Made by a program: the position numbers and the translations under genes
Origin: an uncultured Chthonomonas sp.
Lineage (GTDB): Bacteria > Armatimonadota > Chthonomonadetes > Chthonomonadales > CAJBBX01
Length of the DNA: 60,986 nt
Direction of reading: 5' to 3'
NCBI GenBank assembly: GCA_903885605.1
Contig: CAISJD010000163.1
Span: 1-60,986 of the forward strand
Notes under the pieces: model-generated
The model's input: only the letters and a program-made list of their open reading frames with translations
Databases searched by the model: none
What the model was told of the DNA's origin: nothing
Shown here: in pieces, positions 4,669 through 12,776 of the stretch
Layout of the letters: every line of letters begins with the position of its first letter
Numbering within the stretch: the first letter of the stretch is position 1

Positions 4669-5670
4669 CTACTTCAGAGGCTCCGTCTGCGCGATGAGCG
4701 GCGTGATCGCCGCATCCAAAGCGGCCTCGCCGACGCCGATATCGACCTTGTCGAAGAGGTACCAGCGCTCGACGTACTCAGCCGTGGCCCCAGGCGCCAG
4801 CTTGGTCAGCGGGCCGGTGGACTCCACCTCCATGAAGGAGCCCTTGGTGAAGGTCTCGCAGTTACAGCCCGAGTCAGGGTATGACGCCCCCTCCTGGAAA
4901 CCGAACCGCTTCACGAAGAGGCGCCCGGCGTTGGCGTAGGCGGCCCATCCCTGCTTATTGGCGATGCCGATCTTCTGGGCCACATTGGCCTTGTCATCGG
5001 TCCTCAGGCAGAGGTACTTCTTGCCGACCGTCCAGCGGGCGTCCGTCAGGTCGGTGTAGTGCCAGAGCACCATGGGCCGTGCGGGCAGGACGTAGTCGTC
5101 ATGCGACTTGTAGGGCTCCTGCGGCAGGATCGTGACGCCGCCGCCGGCTACGATGGTGAGCGCCCACGGAGCCAGCTCCACATCCCAGACGCCCGTGTTA
5201 GTCAGGCGATGCGTCACCGTGACCAGGGTGCCGGTGGAAGCCAGCTCTACCTGCATCTCCTTCCGTATCCCCGTGCCGGGCTCGACCTTCTGGGTCAGCT
5301 TGATGCCCGTAGCGCCTACCGGAACGAAGGCGACGGGATCATTGTCCGGAGAGTAGCTGCGAGGCTTCACCTCGGGGGCATGCCAGAGGCGATGCCCGCC
5401 CAGCGGCTTCCAGTCGCCCCACTCTGTGGTCACAGCATCGGTCGGGATCTCGGCGAAGTTGTTCGGTCCACCAGCCAGCGCGTAGCGTATCACGCGGGGC
5501 CCCACGTTTGTGGTGACGACCACTTCGGCGGTCCCATTGCTGAGCCGGTAGCAGTCCGGTAAGTTTAGATAGTTTACTTTCTCCAAGGTCACATCCCCTC
5601 CGGCTCCAAGAGCCATCACGCCCAGCCCGACAAGCCCGACCAACCTTCCCGACATCCGGCTCAGGTCCAT
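4669..5670 (-). CDS. Secreted DUF4380-like (mutarotase-fold) protein of unknown function
   Basis: 333 residues. A short N-terminal hydrophobic segment (LVGLVGLGVMALGAGG) suggests export. The remainder is beta-rich, with motifs I associate with DUF4380/galactose-mutarotase-like proteins (GGHRLWHAPE near residue 95, then a conserved beta sandwich). No catalytic role can be assigned. Start: AGGAGG abuts an in-frame GTG at 5679 but lies 9 nt from ATG 5670, so ATG 5670 is preferred. purN ends at 5676, so the two genes are co-transcribed with almost no gap. The pairing with purN may be only transcriptional. A 200-bp region holding the purH promoter and riboswitch follows the stop. Confidence 0.72.
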   Translation of the reverse strand: MDLSRMSGRLVGLVGLGVMALGAGGDVTLEKVNYLNLPDCYRLSNGTAEVVVTTNVGPRVIRYALAGGPNNFAEIPTDAVTTEWGDWKPLGGHRLWHAPEVKPRSYSPDNDPVAFVPVGATGIKLTQKVEPGTGIRKEMQVELASTGTLVTVTHRLTNTGVWDVELAPWALTIVAGGGVTILPQEPYKSHDDYVLPARPMVLWHYTDLTDARWTVGKKYLCLRTDDKANVAQKIGIANKQGWAAYANAGRLFVKRFGFQEGASYPDSGCNCETFTKGSFMEVESTGPLTKLAPGATAEYVERWYLFDKVDIGVGEAALDAAITPLIAQTEPLK

Positions 5671-5675
5671 CGAAT

Positions 5676-6317
5676 TCACCCTCCTGGCTCCATGGTGCGC
5701 TCGGGCTCTATCCGTACACGTCCGCCGGACAGGGCCAGCCGCCCGGCTGCAAAGAGGGCCACGGCGTGCGCATAGGCGGCGTGTTCCTGCAGAAGGACCC
5801 TGGCGGCCAGCGTCTCGGGGGTGTCGTCCTCCTCCACCGGGACGGTCCGCTGCAGGACGATGGGGCCGTGGTCGTAGACCTCATCCACCATGTGGACCGT
5901 GCAGCCGCTCACCTTCATCCCAGACTCCAGCACCGCACGGTGGACATGCTCCCCGAACATGCCCTTCCCGCCGAAGAGCGGCAGCAGCCCAGGGTGCACA
6001 TTCAGGATGCGGCCGCGATAGGCCCGGACGACCTCCTCCGGCAGGAGGCGCATGTATCCCGCCAGGCAGATGAGGCCGATGGACTGCACCCCCAGCGCCT
6101 CGAGGAGCTGCGCGGCGTAGGCGACGCCATCGCCATGGGGCCGGACCACCAGCGTGGCGATGCCCTGCTCGCGCGCTCGGGCCATGGCCGGGGCTTCCTC
6201 GCGCACTCCAAGGACGAGCGAGACCGTGGCGTCCGCCGTACCGTTGCGGCAGGCATCGATGATGGCCTGCATATTGCTGCCGCGCCCGTGACCGGAGACC
6301 ATGACGGCGATGCGCAC
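5676..6317 (-). CDS. purN: PurN: phosphoribosylglycinamide formyltransferase
   Basis: 213 residues. Transfers a formyl group from 10-formyl-THF to GAR in purine synthesis. It has the N-terminal phosphate-binding segment SGHGRGSN, the catalytic Asn-x-His in ILNVHPGLLP, and the catalytic Asp in DEVYDHGPI. Start: a GTG at 6344 opens the longer frame, but AGGAGG lies 5 nt before GTG 6317, which begins the conserved VRIAVMVSG strand, so 6317 is chosen. A near-consensus promoter lies about 90 nt upstream. It shares the THF-dependent purine theme with purH, but no riboswitch is visible in its own leader. Confidence 0.95.
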   Translation of the reverse strand: MRIAVMVSGHGRGSNMQAIIDACRNGTADATVSLVLGVREEAPAMARAREQGIATLVVRPHGDGVAYAAQLLEALGVQSIGLICLAGYMRLLPEEVVRAYRGRILNVHPGLLPLFGGKGMFGEHVHRAVLESGMKVSGCTVHMVDEVYDHGPIVLQRTVPVEEDDTPETLAARVLLQEHAAYAHAVALFAAGRLALSGGRVRIEPERTMEPGG

Positions 6318-6619: not shown

Positions 6620-7615
6620 ATGACGACCAACACCAAGCAAGACGACCGACAGGCTGGAACGATCTCCCAGGAGGCAAGAATGGACTGTGACAGAGTGTGG
6701 GATCTGCTCTCCGTCTACGCAGACGGCGAGGCTGATGCCAACGAGACGGCGATCGTCGAAGAGCACATCGCCTGCTGCACCACCTGCGCCCGCGACCTCG
6801 AGTTCATGCAGGGCACTTCCGCCGCCGTGCAGGCTGAGACGCAGGTCGCTCCCCCGGCTGCCATGCGGCAGGCCATCCTCAACGCGACGATCTACAAGCC
6901 GACCATGCAGGAGCGCTTCGCTTCCGCGATCCGCCGCTCCTTCTCCCAGTCGCCCGTTCGGTACGGCGCACTGGCCACCGCCGGCGCCGCGGCTGCCCTG
7001 ACGCTCACCGCGATCCGCCCCGGCCTCACCCCCGGCATGGTCCCGGTTACCGGCGTTGCGCAGACGCAGGTTGCCGCTGACACGGAGCCCGGCGTGCTCG
7101 AAGGCCTGGGCCTTGACGACCTGATGCCGAACACGATGCCCGGCATGGCCTCCCGCCAGTCCGGAACCGGCGCCGCTGTTCGCACCCGCCGCGCCTCGGT
7201 GGCAACCGCCGGACGGGACGGATCGGCGCTTGCAGTCCGCGCCGCCGCCCTTCGCAACGGCCACGCGATGCCGAGCGTGAGCATCCCCGCGGGCACCAGC
7301 CTTGATGACGTCGCCGTCGATGATGGCGCAGCCGGACAGGACGAGATGGCCGCGGTCGCCTCGCCGAGCATGACCGCCGAGCCCTCCCTCGAGCCCGCCG
7401 TAGCCCCGGTGAGCGTTCCGACGGTGACCGCCGCCATGGCGCCGCGCATCGTCCTGGCCGCATCCACCGGCGCGGTGAACGCAGGCCAGATCGCCACGCT
7501 GGCCGACATGAGGAAGAGCCTGAACCGCAAGCCCAACGGTCTGAGCGCCGCCGATCTCCGGCAGGAAGCCCGCGACGGTCAGGTTCGGATCGACCTGATC
7601 AAGGGGAGCTTCTAG
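6620..7615 (+). CDS. zf-HC2 anti-sigma-factor-like membrane protein
   Basis: 331 residues. The N-terminal zinc-binding anti-sigma (ZAS/zf-HC2) module shows MDC, then EEHIACCTTCARDL, i.e. HxxxCxxC, within about residues 21-60. A hydrophobic stretch (YGALATAGAAAALTLTAI) near residues 117-135 is a probable membrane anchor. The remaining 200 residues are Ala/Pro/Thr-rich and would be periplasmic. Two starts have good SDs: ATG 6620 (GGAGG, 8 nt) and ATG 6680 (AGGAGG, 5 nt); the second begins exactly at the zinc module. No sigma factor gene is adjacent, which is unusual for this family. The next gene, a large beta-barrel protein, starts 56 bp downstream and is probably co-transcribed. Confidence 0.75.
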   Translation: MTTNTKQDDRQAGTISQEARMDCDRVWDLLSVYADGEADANETAIVEEHIACCTTCARDLEFMQGTSAAVQAETQVAPPAAMRQAILNATIYKPTMQERFASAIRRSFSQSPVRYGALATAGAAAALTLTAIRPGLTPGMVPVTGVAQTQVAADTEPGVLEGLGLDDLMPNTMPGMASRQSGTGAAVRTRRASVATAGRDGSALAVRAAALRNGHAMPSVSIPAGTSLDDVAVDDGAAGQDEMAAVASPSMTAEPSLEPAVAPVSVPTVTAAMAPRIVLAASTGAVNAGQIATLADMRKSLNRKPNGLSAADLRQEARDGQVRIDLIKGSF

Positions 7616-7671
7616 TTAGCTGCCTCAGGCTTAGCACGTTGAGCCATTCGACCTCGGACGGAGGTTAGACA

Positions 7672-10600
7672 ATGACCAAGAGCATCATCAACAACGCAAA
7701 CAGGATCCTGGCAGCAGCCCTGGTCCTTGGAGCCATTCAGACTGCGAGCGCCCAGAGCGCGCCGCGGTTGTTTGACTTTAAGGCAGAGCTCGCCCGGACG
7801 TCTCTGGGCCTCAGCCAGAGCCTGTCTTACATCGACGCCACCGGCAAGCCCAAGGGCCAGACCCGGCTGTTCGTCGAAGCGTTGCGCGGCAACGGAACTC
7901 GCGCGGGCTACATGCTGTCTCACGGCGGCGTGGTACCCGGCACCCTGCGAGTCTCTGTGGGTGCGCGGTCCCTCAAGGCGGAGACCGACTACACGGTCGA
8001 CTTCGCTGGTGGTGGCCTGATGTTCGTAGAGCCCGTCCGTCCCTACGACAGCATCAGCGTCTCGTACCAGTACGTCGACGGTTACGACGCCTCCCGCAAC
8101 GTCACCGGCACCCCCGGCATCGGCCTGAAGCTTCGCGGCTCAGCGCTGAACCTCGGCTATGCCGTCTCGTCGCTCAACGGCGTTAGCTACACCACGTACG
8201 GCCTGGCTCACAACAGCAAGGTCGGCACCGGTTCCACGCTCTCCGGACTGCTCTACTTCAGCTCCGGCGCAGCCAGCAACAGCAACACCATCGGCCGCAC
8301 CAACCAGAACGGCGCCATTCAGCGCTCCAGCAACGCCAAGCCCGCCAATGATCGCTTGCTCGTTCAGAACTTCCAGGGCAAGTCCGGCAAGGCTACGTTC
8401 AACGCTTCGTACCAGGACGTCGGCACCCAGTTCGCAGGCTTCAGCGCCATGCGCAACAACCTGACGTCGAACCCCGTAGAGGCACAGCAGCTCGCAGCGC
8501 TCGAGAAGGAGCGCGGCATCAAGCGCATGAGCTTCGGCGGCGGCCTGGCCACGAGCAAGACCTCGAACCTTGGGCTCAACTGGGACAACATCGGCGACGG
8601 CACCGGCAGTATCGTTAAGCAGGGGCTGAACTACACCGCGGGCGCTCTGAAGATGCAGTATCAGGGCCAGACCGTGGGCACCAGCTTCCAGCGCTTCGGC
8701 AACCTCCGCGACGGAGAGGCCGCCCAGTGGGCGCGCGAGCGCGGCGTCAGCCGCTCCAACATCTCGCTGGCCTACGCCCCCACCAAGGGAGGCGCCCTGA
8801 GCCTGTCGCAAAACAAGATCGGTGATCGGACCGGCGGCCTGACCGGCCTCGGGTTCAACTTCGCCGGCAAGAACCAGAGCCTCAGCTACAACTCAAGCAA
8901 GGCCGACCAGACCTTCTCGCGCCTCAACGACCTGAGCGACGCCGACAAGACGGCCATCGCCCTGGGTATCCGCCAGCAGTTCAACGCGGCAGCGACGGCA
9001 GGCGAAGTTACCGCGAAGGACAAAGAGCAGGTAGCCCGCGAGGCCGGCCTATCACGGACCCGTTGGACCTACGGTTCCGCGCTGGGTAAGGGCTCGACCC
9101 TCGGCTTCAACCAGTTCTCAGTCAGCGACGGTAGCGGCAGCGTTCAGCGCACGACCCTGAGCCTCGCCGGGAAGGGCTTCTCCCTCAACTACCTGGATCA
9201 GAACATCTCGCAGAGCTTCAGCAAGCTGGGCTCCCTGAACGACTTCGAGCGCAGCCAGTACAACAACGAGCTCGGCATGCGGCGCACCGCATTGGGGATG
9301 AATCTGACTCTGAGTCGCTCCTCGACCCTCAGCTACAACCAGTCCACGGCTTCGGATTCGGCCGGCTCCATGTCCCGTCAGTCCCTCGCCTACGCCGCCA
9401 AGGGCTTTGACGCTCGCGTCAACCTGGGCACGACGGCTTCTTCTTACGCGCGTGCACGCGATATGGCGTATTTGAACGACGCCGAGCGCGCCGGCATCGA
9501 GGGCGAGCGGGGCTTCCGCCGCATGGACTTCGCGGCCAACCTGACCTCGATCCGCAACCTGACCCTGAGCACCACGGTCTACAACGCCGTGAACTCCGAG
9601 CTTTCGCTGACCCGGAACAACTACCGCCACGCCGCCGGCTGGACCCCGAACAAGGCCACCCGGATCAACTACCTGAGCGACGGTAACTCCTCGACCAGGT
9701 CGGGCATCGTGGCTAACGGCATCGCCCACCAGCTGGTCAGCATTGATCAGCAGCTGAAGCGCGGCATGAAGTGGAACGCCTTCCGTGATGAGGTGACCAC
9801 CACCGCCAACGGCGCGGTCGCCGGCCGCACGACCACCAACTTCCTGCACTTCGAGACCGACCGCAGCAAGGCCAACAACCTGCTCGCCGAGACCAAGCGC
9901 ATCGGCTTCAGCGACGGCCGCTTCGAGAACACGACCGTCGTCGACATGAACTGGCAGGCGTCCAAGGCCATGGGCTTCCACATGAACCGCACCGCGGTTG
10001 ATCGTGGCCGCGAGGCCTCGGCTGCCACCAGCATGCTGGACTGGAAGTGGCAGGCGAGCAAGACCCTGAGCCTGACGGGCCAGATGGGCGCCACGCAGAC
10101 CAACACGGGTACGGGCACCACCTTCCGCGGCCTGACCCTCGCCACGCCGGTCTCCGGCATGTTCAGCCTGGCCGGCTCCTACTCCGAGGCTGTCGTCCAG
10201 GGCAAGAACAACCGTTCAGTGGCAGGTCTCTCCATCTCGTCTCTCAAGCCCATGAACATCCTGGGCCTCCGCAACGCGTCGGTCACGCTCGGCTACGCCG
10301 GTGTGCACGACCAGCAGAAGCAGCAGACCGAGAACGTCAGCGCCAAGGTGCAGGGCCTGCTCGGCAAGAACACCGTGGCCCTCGAGTATGGCGGCGCACT
10401 GGATGCAAAGGGCAACTCCGGCGTCTCCCGCGGCTTCAGCTTCGTCAGCGACCGCAACGAGAAGCTCCCCGTTCACTTCAGCGTCGCCTACAAGGCCCGC
10501 AACGTGAACCGCGGCAACGTCCAGCTCGTTCGTAACTACAACCTGGCTCTGCGCCTGTCGAAGACCTCCAGCCTGACCTATGCCTACAACTCGCTGCCCG

Positions 10601-10968
10601 AGGACGGCGCGCTGAACATGCAGCAGCTGAAGAGCTCCGGCTTCACGTTCAAGCATGCGCTGAACGCCGCCACTGCCCTGTCGCTCGACTACACCACCAG
10701 CGAGAACCTCGCCAATCGGCAGGCCACCCGCAAGCTCGGCGCCTCACTGATCGGCAAGCTCGACAAGGTGGCTTCGTTCCAGGCCGGCTACAGCGTCAAC
10801 GTCAGCAACATCAACGGCCAGAATGTGAACGCCCACGCCGTCAGCCTGGGCTTCGACCGCCGCATCGATGCCGACCACTCCGTGGCCTTCAACACCGTCT
10901 ACACGATGAACATGGCCGGCCGCACCACCGATGTCCAGGCCAACGTTGAGTTCAAGACCCGCTTCTAA
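7672..10968 (+). CDS. Large predicted outer-membrane beta-barrel protein with internal repeats
   Basis: 1098 residues; family not recognised. The N-terminus has a clear signal peptide (ILAAALVLGAIQTASAQS, cleavage near residue 28). A beta domain follows (about 30-160), then alternating polar/hydrophobic strands to a C-terminal ...VEFKTRF; a terminal Phe is the classic beta-barrel signature for outer-membrane insertion. About five degenerate repeats of 75-100 residues (about 254-680) each start with an aromatic, then a short helix LxDxExxxxxExGxxR, then paired strands with SDGSGS-like turns. Start ATG 7672 has GGAGG 7 nt upstream. It follows the zf-HC2 gene by 56 bp. A porin-like, secretin-associated or adhesin role would be a guess. 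Confidence 0.72.
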   Translation: MTKSIINNANRILAAALVLGAIQTASAQSAPRLFDFKAELARTSLGLSQSLSYIDATGKPKGQTRLFVEALRGNGTRAGYMLSHGGVVPGTLRVSVGARSLKAETDYTVDFAGGGLMFVEPVRPYDSISVSYQYVDGYDASRNVTGTPGIGLKLRGSALNLGYAVSSLNGVSYTTYGLAHNSKVGTGSTLSGLLYFSSGAASNSNTIGRTNQNGAIQRSSNAKPANDRLLVQNFQGKSGKATFNASYQDVGTQFAGFSAMRNNLTSNPVEAQQLAALEKERGIKRMSFGGGLATSKTSNLGLNWDNIGDGTGSIVKQGLNYTAGALKMQYQGQTVGTSFQRFGNLRDGEAAQWARERGVSRSNISLAYAPTKGGALSLSQNKIGDRTGGLTGLGFNFAGKNQSLSYNSSKADQTFSRLNDLSDADKTAIALGIRQQFNAAATAGEVTAKDKEQVAREAGLSRTRWTYGSALGKGSTLGFNQFSVSDGSGSVQRTTLSLAGKGFSLNYLDQNISQSFSKLGSLNDFERSQYNNELGMRRTALGMNLTLSRSSTLSYNQSTASDSAGSMSRQSLAYAAKGFDARVNLGTTASSYARARDMAYLNDAERAGIEGERGFRRMDFAANLTSIRNLTLSTTVYNAVNSELSLTRNNYRHAAGWTPNKATRINYLSDGNSSTRSGIVANGIAHQLVSIDQQLKRGMKWNAFRDEVTTTANGAVAGRTTTNFLHFETDRSKANNLLAETKRIGFSDGRFENTTVVDMNWQASKAMGFHMNRTAVDRGREASAATSMLDWKWQASKTLSLTGQMGATQTNTGTGTTFRGLTLATPVSGMFSLAGSYSEAVVQGKNNRSVAGLSISSLKPMNILGLRNASVTLGYAGVHDQQKQQTENVSAKVQGLLGKNTVALEYGGALDAKGNSGVSRGFSFVSDRNEKLPVHFSVAYKARNVNRGNVQLVRNYNLALRLSKTSSLTYAYNSLPEDGALNMQQLKSSGFTFKHALNAATALSLDYTTSENLANRQATRKLGASLIGKLDKVASFQAGYSVNVSNINGQNVNAHAVSLGFDRRIDADHSVAFNTVYTMNMAGRTTDVQANVEFKTRF
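8431..9711 (+). repeat. Degenerate in-frame protein repeats within the beta-barrel gene
   Basis: About five tandem protein-level units begin near residues 254, 338, 414, 515 and 591 of the barrel protein. They share F/Y-x-x-L...L(S/N)DxE...E(R/L)G(F/M/V/I)xR followed by two or more strands and a D-x-x-G-S turn. The third unit carries an extra insertion of about 25 residues. DNA identity is low, indicating old duplication. Confidence 0.6.
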
Positions 10969-11019
10969 TCAGACCCCTACTCCGCCTCTAGCCCATTATC
11001 TAGCAAACGTAGCCTCTAG

Positions 11020-11184
11020 ACCGAAGCAAGCAGTTCCTCGCAGGACCCGTCGGACCCCGACCAGCCTGACGCGCCGTACCCTCCCGAGCCGAACCCGCTG
11101 AACCCCCCACCCAAGCCACCAGAGACGCCCCCAATGCGCCTGTCCCGTTACCCGGATTGCGTTGCCGCCCTCACGGTATACTGA
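11020..11184 (+). other. Proline-rich open frame without a start codon (possible gene remnant)
   Basis: Between the barrel gene and kdsD (283 bp without an assigned gene) one frame stays open for 54 codons and reads as a strongly biased peptide (PDQPDAPYPPEPNP, NPPPKPPETPP) before ending VAALTVY and a stop. There is no ATG, GTG or TTG at its beginning; the first ATG is near its end. It could be the tail of a decayed gene, a non-canonically started small protein, or chance in C-rich DNA. Apart from this and the kdsD promoter, I see nothing in the gap. Confidence 0.25.
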
Positions 11185-11199
11185 AGCGCCGGCCGTCGT

Positions 11200-11229
11200 T
11201 TGATCGATCCGGGCATGGCCGCATACTAT
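11200..11229 (+). promoter_or_regulatory. Probable promoter of the kdsD-kdsC-miaA-hfq-dapF cluster
   Basis: TTGATC (11200-11205), an 18-bp spacer, TACTAT (11224-11229), predicted start about 16 nt before kdsD. A second -10-like TATACT at 11177-11182 lacks a good -35. Confidence 0.45.
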
Positions 11230-11251
11230 ATGTATAGGGTGGAGGACTACC

Positions 11252-12226
11252 GTGGCGTTCGATTACGTCGCCGCCGGTCGCCGCGTGATGTTGCAGGAAG
11301 CCGCGGCCATCACCAACATGGCGGAGGCGCTGGGGCCCAGCTTTGTGCGGGCCGCCGACCTTCTGCTTGCATGCAAGGGCCGGGCCGTGACCACCGGCAT
11401 CGGCAAGGCCGGCGCCGTTGCGCGCAAGGCGGCCGCGACCCTCGCCTCCACCGGCACCCCGGCGCTCTACCTGCATCCCGCCGAGGGCGTCCACGGCGAT
11501 CTCGGGGCAGTGACGCCCGATGATGTGGTGCTGGCCCTCTCCTACAGCGGCGAGAGCGACGAGGTCTCGCGGATCCTGCCAACCCTTCGGCGCATCGGTG
11601 CGCCCATCATCGCCGTGACGGGTAGCAATGCGTCCACTCTAGGAGCCGCCGCTTTCCTGGTGCTTGACGTCTCCGTGGAGCGCGAGGCGTGCCCGCTGGG
11701 CCTGGCGCCCACGACGTCGGCGGTGGCGATGCTCTCCATGTGCGATGCGCTGGCCATGGCGGTCATGGAGGCCAGGGGCTTCACGCGCGAGGATTTCGCC
11801 CTCTACCATCCTGCCGGTGCCCTGGGCCGCCGGCTCACGCTTCGCGTGGCGGATGTCATGCGCTCGGGCGAGCAGATGGCGGTGACCTCCCAGAACGTGC
11901 TGCTCCGCGACGCGCTCTTCGCCATCACCCGGGCCCACGCCGGCGCGGCCTTCCTCACCGATGAAGCGGGCAAGCTCACCGGCCTCCTGACTGACGGTGA
12001 TGTGCGGCGCGTGATTCTGGCCGATCGTGACGCGCTGGATCTGCCCGCATATACAGTAATGAATCGCTCGCCGCTCACCATCGCCGGTAACATCCTGGCC
12101 GCCGATGCCCTCTCGATCCTTCAGGAGAGCCCCAAGCGCCCCGGCGAGGCGCCTGTCATTGACGCCGAGGGACGGCCCGTGGGCCTTCTCATGATCAAGG
12201 ACCTGTTGCGCAGTGGAATCGTCTAG
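11252..12226 (+). CDS. kdsD: KdsD/KpsF-type D-arabinose-5-phosphate isomerase
   Basis: 324 residues, the family length. Interconverts ribulose-5-P and arabinose-5-P, the first committed step toward Kdo of lipopolysaccharide. The SIS domain (about 35-180) shows GIGKAGAVARK, ALSYSGESDE and HPAGALGRRL; two CBS domains follow (about 205-324). GTG start with GGAGG 6 nt upstream. It overlaps the next gene by 14 bp; that gene is kdsC, which catalyses a later step of the same pathway, so assignment as an API rather than another SIS sugar isomerase is strong. It implies an outer membrane with Kdo-containing LPS. Confidence 0.93.
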   Translation: MAFDYVAAGRRVMLQEAAAITNMAEALGPSFVRAADLLLACKGRAVTTGIGKAGAVARKAAATLASTGTPALYLHPAEGVHGDLGAVTPDDVVLALSYSGESDEVSRILPTLRRIGAPIIAVTGSNASTLGAAAFLVLDVSVEREACPLGLAPTTSAVAMLSMCDALAMAVMEARGFTREDFALYHPAGALGRRLTLRVADVMRSGEQMAVTSQNVLLRDALFAITRAHAGAAFLTDEAGKLTGLLTDGDVRRVILADRDALDLPAYTVMNRSPLTIAGNILAADALSILQESPKRPGEAPVIDAEGRPVGLLMIKDLLRSGIV

Positions 12227-12776
12227 GTGCTACACCTTGCCCGAGCCCTTGGTCGCACGGGCCGCCTGCATCCGGCTAATCGCCATGGACGTCGACGGCG
12301 TCCTGACCGACGGGCGCATCATCCACGTCGGCGACGACGAGGCCCGGTGCTTCCACGCGCATGATGGGATGGGTCTGCGCCTGGCGGCGGCGGCCGGCTT
12401 GCGTATCGCCTGGATCACCGGGCGTCAGTCACGCTCGGTTCAGCGACGCGCCGCGGACCTGGGCGTGGATGACCTTGTGGAGAACTGCGCGGTAAAGTCG
12501 GTTGCGCTTCGGCGCCTGTGCGACGCGCATGGATGCCGGCCAGGCGAGGCCGCCTTTATCGGCGATGATGTCAATGACGTACCCGCCCTCCGCATCGCGG
12601 GCATCAGTTTCGCCCCAGCCGACGCGGTGCCGTGGGTGCGCCTGTCGGTGGACCACGTCACGCCTGCCGCCGGCGGGTTCGGAGCTGTACGCCAGGTCTG
12701 CGAGGGCCTCGTGGCTGCCCAATGCGGCATGGAGGCGGCTGTAGAGGCCTACCTTCGGGTAGGCGCCGGTAACTGA
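12213..12776 (+). CDS. kdsC: KdsC: 3-deoxy-D-manno-octulosonate 8-phosphate phosphatase
   Basis: 187 residues. HAD-superfamily phosphatase that removes phosphate from Kdo-8-P in LPS core synthesis. Motif I is MDVDGVLTDG (nucleophile and acid Asp), motif II is ITGRQSRS, motif III Lys is in CAVKSVAL, motif IV is IGDDVNDVPAL; it is short and capless like other KdsC proteins. The GTG start at 12213 overlaps kdsD by 14 bp. A TTG at 12237 is an alternative, and conservation begins only near residue 20. Translational coupling with kdsD is likely. KdsA and KdsB are not in the window. Confidence 0.92.
   Translation: MESSRCYTLPEPLVARAACIRLIAMDVDGVLTDGRIIHVGDDEARCFHAHDGMGLRLAAAAGLRIAWITGRQSRSVQRRAADLGVDDLVENCAVKSVALRRLCDAHGCRPGEAAFIGDDVNDVPALRIAGISFAPADAVPWVRLSVDHVTPAAGGFGAVRQVCEGLVAAQCGMEAAVEAYLRVGAGN

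Follow-up and report, generated by a model that had tools for sequence, protein, structure and literature searches.

A conserved Armatimonadota gene pair encoding an orphan anti-sigma-like protein and a predicted outer-membrane barrel: a candidate two-part transenvelope signalling module

The gene pair in the window

The window analysed here is a stretch of 60,986 nucleotides from an uncultured Chthonomonas sp. (contig CAISJD010000163.1), whose genome (5.6 Mb, GC about 0.66) has as close kin two Armatimonadota metagenome-assembled genomes, one Chthonomonas sp. Two genes of its + strand, separated by 56 bp, encode an anti-sigma-like protein of the zf-HC2 type and a large protein predicted to be an outer-membrane beta-barrel. 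This layout, a zf-HC2 protein with a membrane helix and a tail followed by a signal-peptide protein, had been described in an earlier note on the same DNA, and the domain match and the alignment of the helix with homologues agree with it; what had gone unnoticed is that the anti-sigma-like protein itself ends in a Phe-terminated segment. The features are as follows:

6620..7615, +: orphan zf-HC2 anti-sigma-like protein (PF13490, E 3.7e-8), found ahead of the barrel gene at 39 of the 46 barrel loci
6686..6790, +: cytoplasmic zf-HC2 anti-sigma domain, with the C...H-x3-C-x2-C ligands present
6959..7015, +: putative transmembrane helix RYGALATAGAAAALTLTAI, coinciding in position with transmembrane segments of homologues
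7016..7579, +: long A/P/S/T-rich periplasmic tether, proposed from composition
7580..7612, +: conserved C-terminal strand QVRIDLIKGSF, ending in Phe (Phe in 39 of 39 homologous pairs; position profile)
7672..10968, +: 1098-aa predicted outer-membrane beta-barrel protein of a new family
7672..7755, +: putative signal peptide MTKSIINNANRILAAALVLGAIQTASAQ, by sequence inspection
7834..8124, +: N-terminal beta domain, VPGTLRVSVGxxxLxxxxDYTVDF...DSISVSYQY
8470..9699, +: repeat region with five units of about 78 residues, each a helix-like LxDxExxxxxExGxxR followed by beta strands
10933..10965, +: C-terminal strand of the barrel, VQANVEFKTRF, beta-signal-like

The anti-sigma-like open reading frame (ORF) ends at 7615 and gives 331 aa from the ATG at 6620 or 311 aa from a start at 6680. 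The latter is the more likely start because of the GGAGG at 6670 and because the Met-x-Cys that it provides is conserved in many homologues. The zf-HC2 match (33.8 bits) lies above the family cut-off of 22.2. The putative transmembrane stretch is only weakly hydrophobic in the window protein and aligns with clearer segments in the homologues; transmembrane helices, disorder and signal peptides were all judged from the sequence by simple means. A plasmid search made with the anti-sigma-like protein gave no match.

Conservation of the pair and of its Phe-ending tail

The sequences show the conserved pair, the order of its domains, the tail and the link of that tail to barrel genes. The deep search covered Armatimonadota, with uneven genome sampling: barrel homologues were found in 70 of 101 genomes (search at E 0.001), some of them by the N-terminal domain only. 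Among the 46 clear barrel loci (barrel match with E below 1e-20), 39, from several Armatimonadota families, had an anti-sigma-like gene as their immediate upstream neighbour, read in the same direction. The gene association, whose absence elsewhere would have told against the proposal of the earlier note, is thus strongly conserved. The gap is usually from -1 to 130 bp, and family f6 has overlapping genes (gap of -1), as in translational coupling. Since the flanking genes mostly differ between families, the pair itself appears to be the unit.

The tail of the homologues, C-terminal strand included, is 165-275 aa long (about 199 residues in the window protein), and A, P, S and T make up 36-53% of the stretch between the transmembrane segment and the terminal strand; this composition suggests that the tether is disordered. 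All 39 barrel-paired proteins end in Phe, a residue that terminates about 4% of other ORFs. The tail profile has hydrophobic residues at -9, -7, -5 and -4, a basic one at -3, a small one at -2, a polar one at -1 and Phe at 0, with the consensus [QE][IV]x[IVL]x[VLI][IVF][KR][GTS][RS]F; among 26 dereplicated tails, position -2 is mainly occupied by G, T, S or V and never by an aromatic residue. In a wider zf-HC2-type set, whose control loci came from among the proteins most similar to the window protein and were not random picks, the terminal Phe was present in 40 of 40 barrel-linked proteins, in none of 55 linked to a gene for an extracytoplasmic function (ECF) sigma factor, and in 7 of 13 orphans. 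Three of these seven precede a porin-like family, one precedes a distant barrel relative, one, at the end of a contig, resembles the barrel-linked proteins, and two stand beside non-barrel genes.

The end of the tail scores like the C-terminus of the partner barrel (FKTRF in the window): for residues -3 to -1 the difference from other ORFs has a P of 2e-13. When the comparison is with other Phe-ending ORFs, residues -6 to -1 give a P of only 0.025, with 3 of the 27 controls being themselves F-tailed anti-sigma-like proteins. The Omp85 protein of the same genome ends in ...HFSIGHVF, that is, with the usual Phe. The Phe-ending tail speaks, independently of the gene association, for an anti-sigma-like protein that reaches an outer-membrane partner.

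The zf-HC2 model has 11 matches in the window's genome, and 6 of the 10 others are above the family cut-off. Eight of these 10 directly follow an ECF sigma gene (sigma-70 regions 2 and 4 confirmed by Pfam); the other two are L126, without a confirmed upstream sigma gene, and L129, a WD40-type protein whose match probably arose by chance. It had been remarked that no sigma factor adjoins the pair: this is correct, and by comparison with these matches unusual. No sigma gene was found in the window neighbourhood, nor upstream on the same strand in 45 loci. A sigma gene of family f19 (L091, L095 and L106) was rejected as a partner, since it runs in the opposite direction and is followed by a zf-HC2 gene of its own. 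The many ECF sigma factors of C. calidirosea, and the frequent dispersal of its functionally related genes (PMC4959169), make a sigma partner encoded elsewhere plausible.

In family f3 (C. calidirosea-like and Chthonomonadaceae-like genomes) the zinc Cys and His residues are lost and the anti-sigma core LLSxYxDGE is kept; one such protein has a weak RseA_N match (E 0.024). The RseA_N domain is itself zinc-less. We counted the kept core and this weak match in favour of the signalling module proposed below.

Other arrangements occur. Some F-tailed proteins (L080, L089, L093, L097, L106 and L164) carry two tandem anti-sigma domains. At L107, L118 and L131 an F-tailed zf-HC2 protein lies upstream of a different porin-like protein, which makes a second pairing of an anti-sigma-like with an outer-membrane-type protein; a ZnuA-like zinc-binding protein gene comes next in L107 and L118, and L107 also has an ABC ATPase gene.

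The barrel-like protein

The downstream protein has the sequence traits of an outer-membrane beta-barrel: an N-terminus typical of a signal peptide (by inspection), no Cys, beta alternation and a C-terminal strand closing on Phe (...VEFKTRF). Its beta-type amphipathic segments number 28, versus 16.9 ± 3.5 in shuffled sequences. The earlier note had called it a beta-barrel; these traits add to that claim, and the fold is best kept as a prediction, the protein having no match in NCBIfam, none in Pfam at E 0.1 and none in a single-sequence search of the PDB. Nor did any known family with an unrelated role come up. A profile search of the PDB found only two proteins, both weakly (E 0.36 and 1.1), and these were taken as chance. 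A relation to SprA and the type IX translocon was likewise set aside: SprA_N (PF14349) had no match above the cut-off in 41 genomes, the best (E 0.45) being in an interrupted frame, and 14 control genomes were also matchless, so that this search was without a positive control.

The repeats, about five of which had been noticed before, are confirmed as five units (residues 267-344, 343-420, 444-521, 520-597 and 599-676) anchored on E-x-G-x-x-R. Pairwise alignments stand 8-14 z units above shuffles in 8 of 10 pairs, and the anchoring Gly and Arg hardly vary across 34 homologues. In the same homologues D106, Y107, D110, Y132 and Y134 of the N-terminal domain are nearly invariant. The model of that domain has seven strands at low confidence (predicted local distance difference test, pLDDT, of 51) and its FN3-like matches are weak, none being below E 0.01; the domain is possibly immunoglobulin- or FN3-like.

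The N-terminal domain is also found apart from the rest. The window's own genome encodes another protein, about 1007 aa long (L109, with G000:C169:19785-20069 within it), that has only the DYTVDF-type domain in common with the barrel-like protein, and at L085 a second, shorter protein of 667 aa with this domain (10183-12186, -) lies upstream of the anti-sigma gene.

A transenvelope reading and its rivals

An anti-sigma domain, a transmembrane helix, a long tether, a strand resembling the end of an outer-membrane protein (OMP) and a co-encoded barrel form a layout that suggests a protein extending from cytoplasm to outer membrane. The reading that we prefer, to which we give a probability of about one half, is that the two genes constitute a two-part transenvelope signalling module, in which the tail docks on the barrel or on its assembly machinery and an ECF sigma factor is controlled. 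The anti-sigma domain would be cytoplasmic and, through one transmembrane helix and a long disordered tether, be joined to a strand imitating an OMP end, which would dock either on the partner barrel in the outer membrane or on the apparatus for its assembly. With the barrel correctly assembled, or in a particular state of occupancy, the tail would be held in place and the anti-sigma domain would keep inactive an ECF sigma factor encoded elsewhere; loss or change of the contact would open the anti-sigma-like protein to regulated proteolysis and free the sigma factor. A narrower proposal, tentative and rather on the doubtful side, is that of a dual-membrane-spanning anti-sigma system that is split between two proteins and lies outside Bacteroidota: the tail strand would pair with, or assemble into, the separate co-encoded barrel, the cytoplasmic domain would read the state of the outer membrane, and the same F-tail would have become attached to two or more barrel families that are not related to each other. 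The earlier note had suggested a signalling module: the conserved pair and the tail speak for it, and its sigma-control part lacks the support that a linked sigma gene would give.

Several observations weigh against the signalling module. No sigma factor is linked to the pair: only 5 of 45 loci have a sigma match, each time on the other strand. Seven barrel loci, those of family f14 (six genomes) and L103, are without an anti-sigma-like partner, and it is a non-barrel gene that adjoins the F-tailed orphans L117 and L148. The whole-barrel model, made from an alignment of three rows (window, L032 and L033, 95-97% identical), has a pLDDT of 28 and leaves the fold without structural confirmation. 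The anti-sigma-domain tree, with few informative columns, gave 7 changes and, on its well-supported branches, 2 independent pairs. All F-tails may go back to one ancient origin, in which case 40 of 40 does not stand for 40 independent events and the counts speak of long conservation rather than of many gains.

The Phe carboxylate, kept in 39 of 39 proteins including those of the 5 loci where the Phe of the barrel is followed by one more residue, would also suit a PDZ ligand. The tail could then serve a periplasmic HtrA/DegS-like protease, in general OMP stress sensing or in cleavage of the protein itself, and leave the neighbouring barrel untouched. The genome has 10 PDZ matches, and there is a precedent in periplasmic MucE, which ends in WVF and activates AlgW (PMC8545111). 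We nevertheless regard this as unlikely: DegS and AlgW ligands have large aromatic residues at both 0 and -2 (PMC8545111), whereas the tails here have no aromatic residue at -2; the conserved strand, of 10 residues, exceeds a typical PDZ ligand; and a sensor of general stress would have no need to be linked to one particular barrel.

The protein might instead be a mechanical tether or an assembly partner running from the inner membrane to the barrel, the anti-sigma domain being a relic or binding something else. The long tether, the missing sigma gene and the loss of zinc ligands in family f3 would all fit. The zinc-less members have nonetheless kept the anti-sigma core motif, and with many ECF sigma factors in these genomes and related genes often dispersed in C. 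calidirosea (PMC4959169) an unlinked partner would be no surprise; we consider this explanation improbable too. That the two genes are ordinary operon neighbours without functional coupling seems to us very improbable. Adjacent genes are common and the coupling rests here on sequence, but the association has been kept over deep divergence while most flanks were replaced, and the F-tail marks the barrel-linked members.

That such a module is wholly without precedent, as the earlier note suggested, is not supported. The Dma anti-sigma factors, reported solely in Bacteroidota, combine in a single polypeptide an anti-sigma domain, one transmembrane helix, a long disordered tether and an outer-membrane beta element (PMC13088901). 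The window protein shares with them the anti-sigma domain, the helix (weak in this protein) and a long tether disordered by composition; it differs in having one terminal strand instead of a C-terminal barrel, the barrel-like protein being encoded by a separate gene, and in having no adjacent ECF21 sigma gene. The pair looks like a two-gene version of Dma. In FecR/FoxR cell-surface signalling a membrane anti-sigma factor is coupled to a TonB-dependent transducer (FoxR/FoxA; PMC11637429). The proposed meeting of a periplasmic C-terminus with an outer-membrane barrel protein is similar, but neither the window proteins nor the 34 barrel homologues have a TonB-dependent receptor, plug, STN or FecR match in Pfam, and there is no linked sigma gene. 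With the RseA/DegS and MucA/AlgW/MucE routes our proposal has in common an OMP-like C-terminus as signal and proteolysis of the anti-sigma factor; in the DegS/AlgW route the C-termini are aromatic-x-aromatic (PMC8545111), whereas here the OMP-like end is on the anti-sigma-like protein itself, is not aromatic at -2 and is gene-linked to one barrel. From the zf-HC2 anti-sigma factors (PF13490), with which it shares domain and helix, the protein departs by its F-ending tail, by being an orphan without a cognate ECF sigma gene and, in one family, by the loss of the zinc ligands.

Few systems are known that wire the outer membrane directly to transcription. If the proposal is true, it extends the Dma idea beyond Bacteroidota, in two-gene form, gives a function to a large unannotated barrel-like family, and provides a search rule for all diderm bacteria: an anti-sigma-like protein with an OMP-type terminal strand adjoining a barrel.

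Around the pair, a DUF4380-like gene is found nearby in the window, at 4669-5679 (-), and in the rest of its family; such a gene is directly downstream of the barrel in L088 and L100, of the distant family f14. After the barrel gene, at 11252-12776 (+) and also in some family relatives, come a SIS+CBS gene (KdsD/KpsF-like) and a HAD gene (KdsC-like), which hint at a lipopolysaccharide containing Kdo (3-deoxy-D-manno-octulosonic acid) and thus at an outer membrane.
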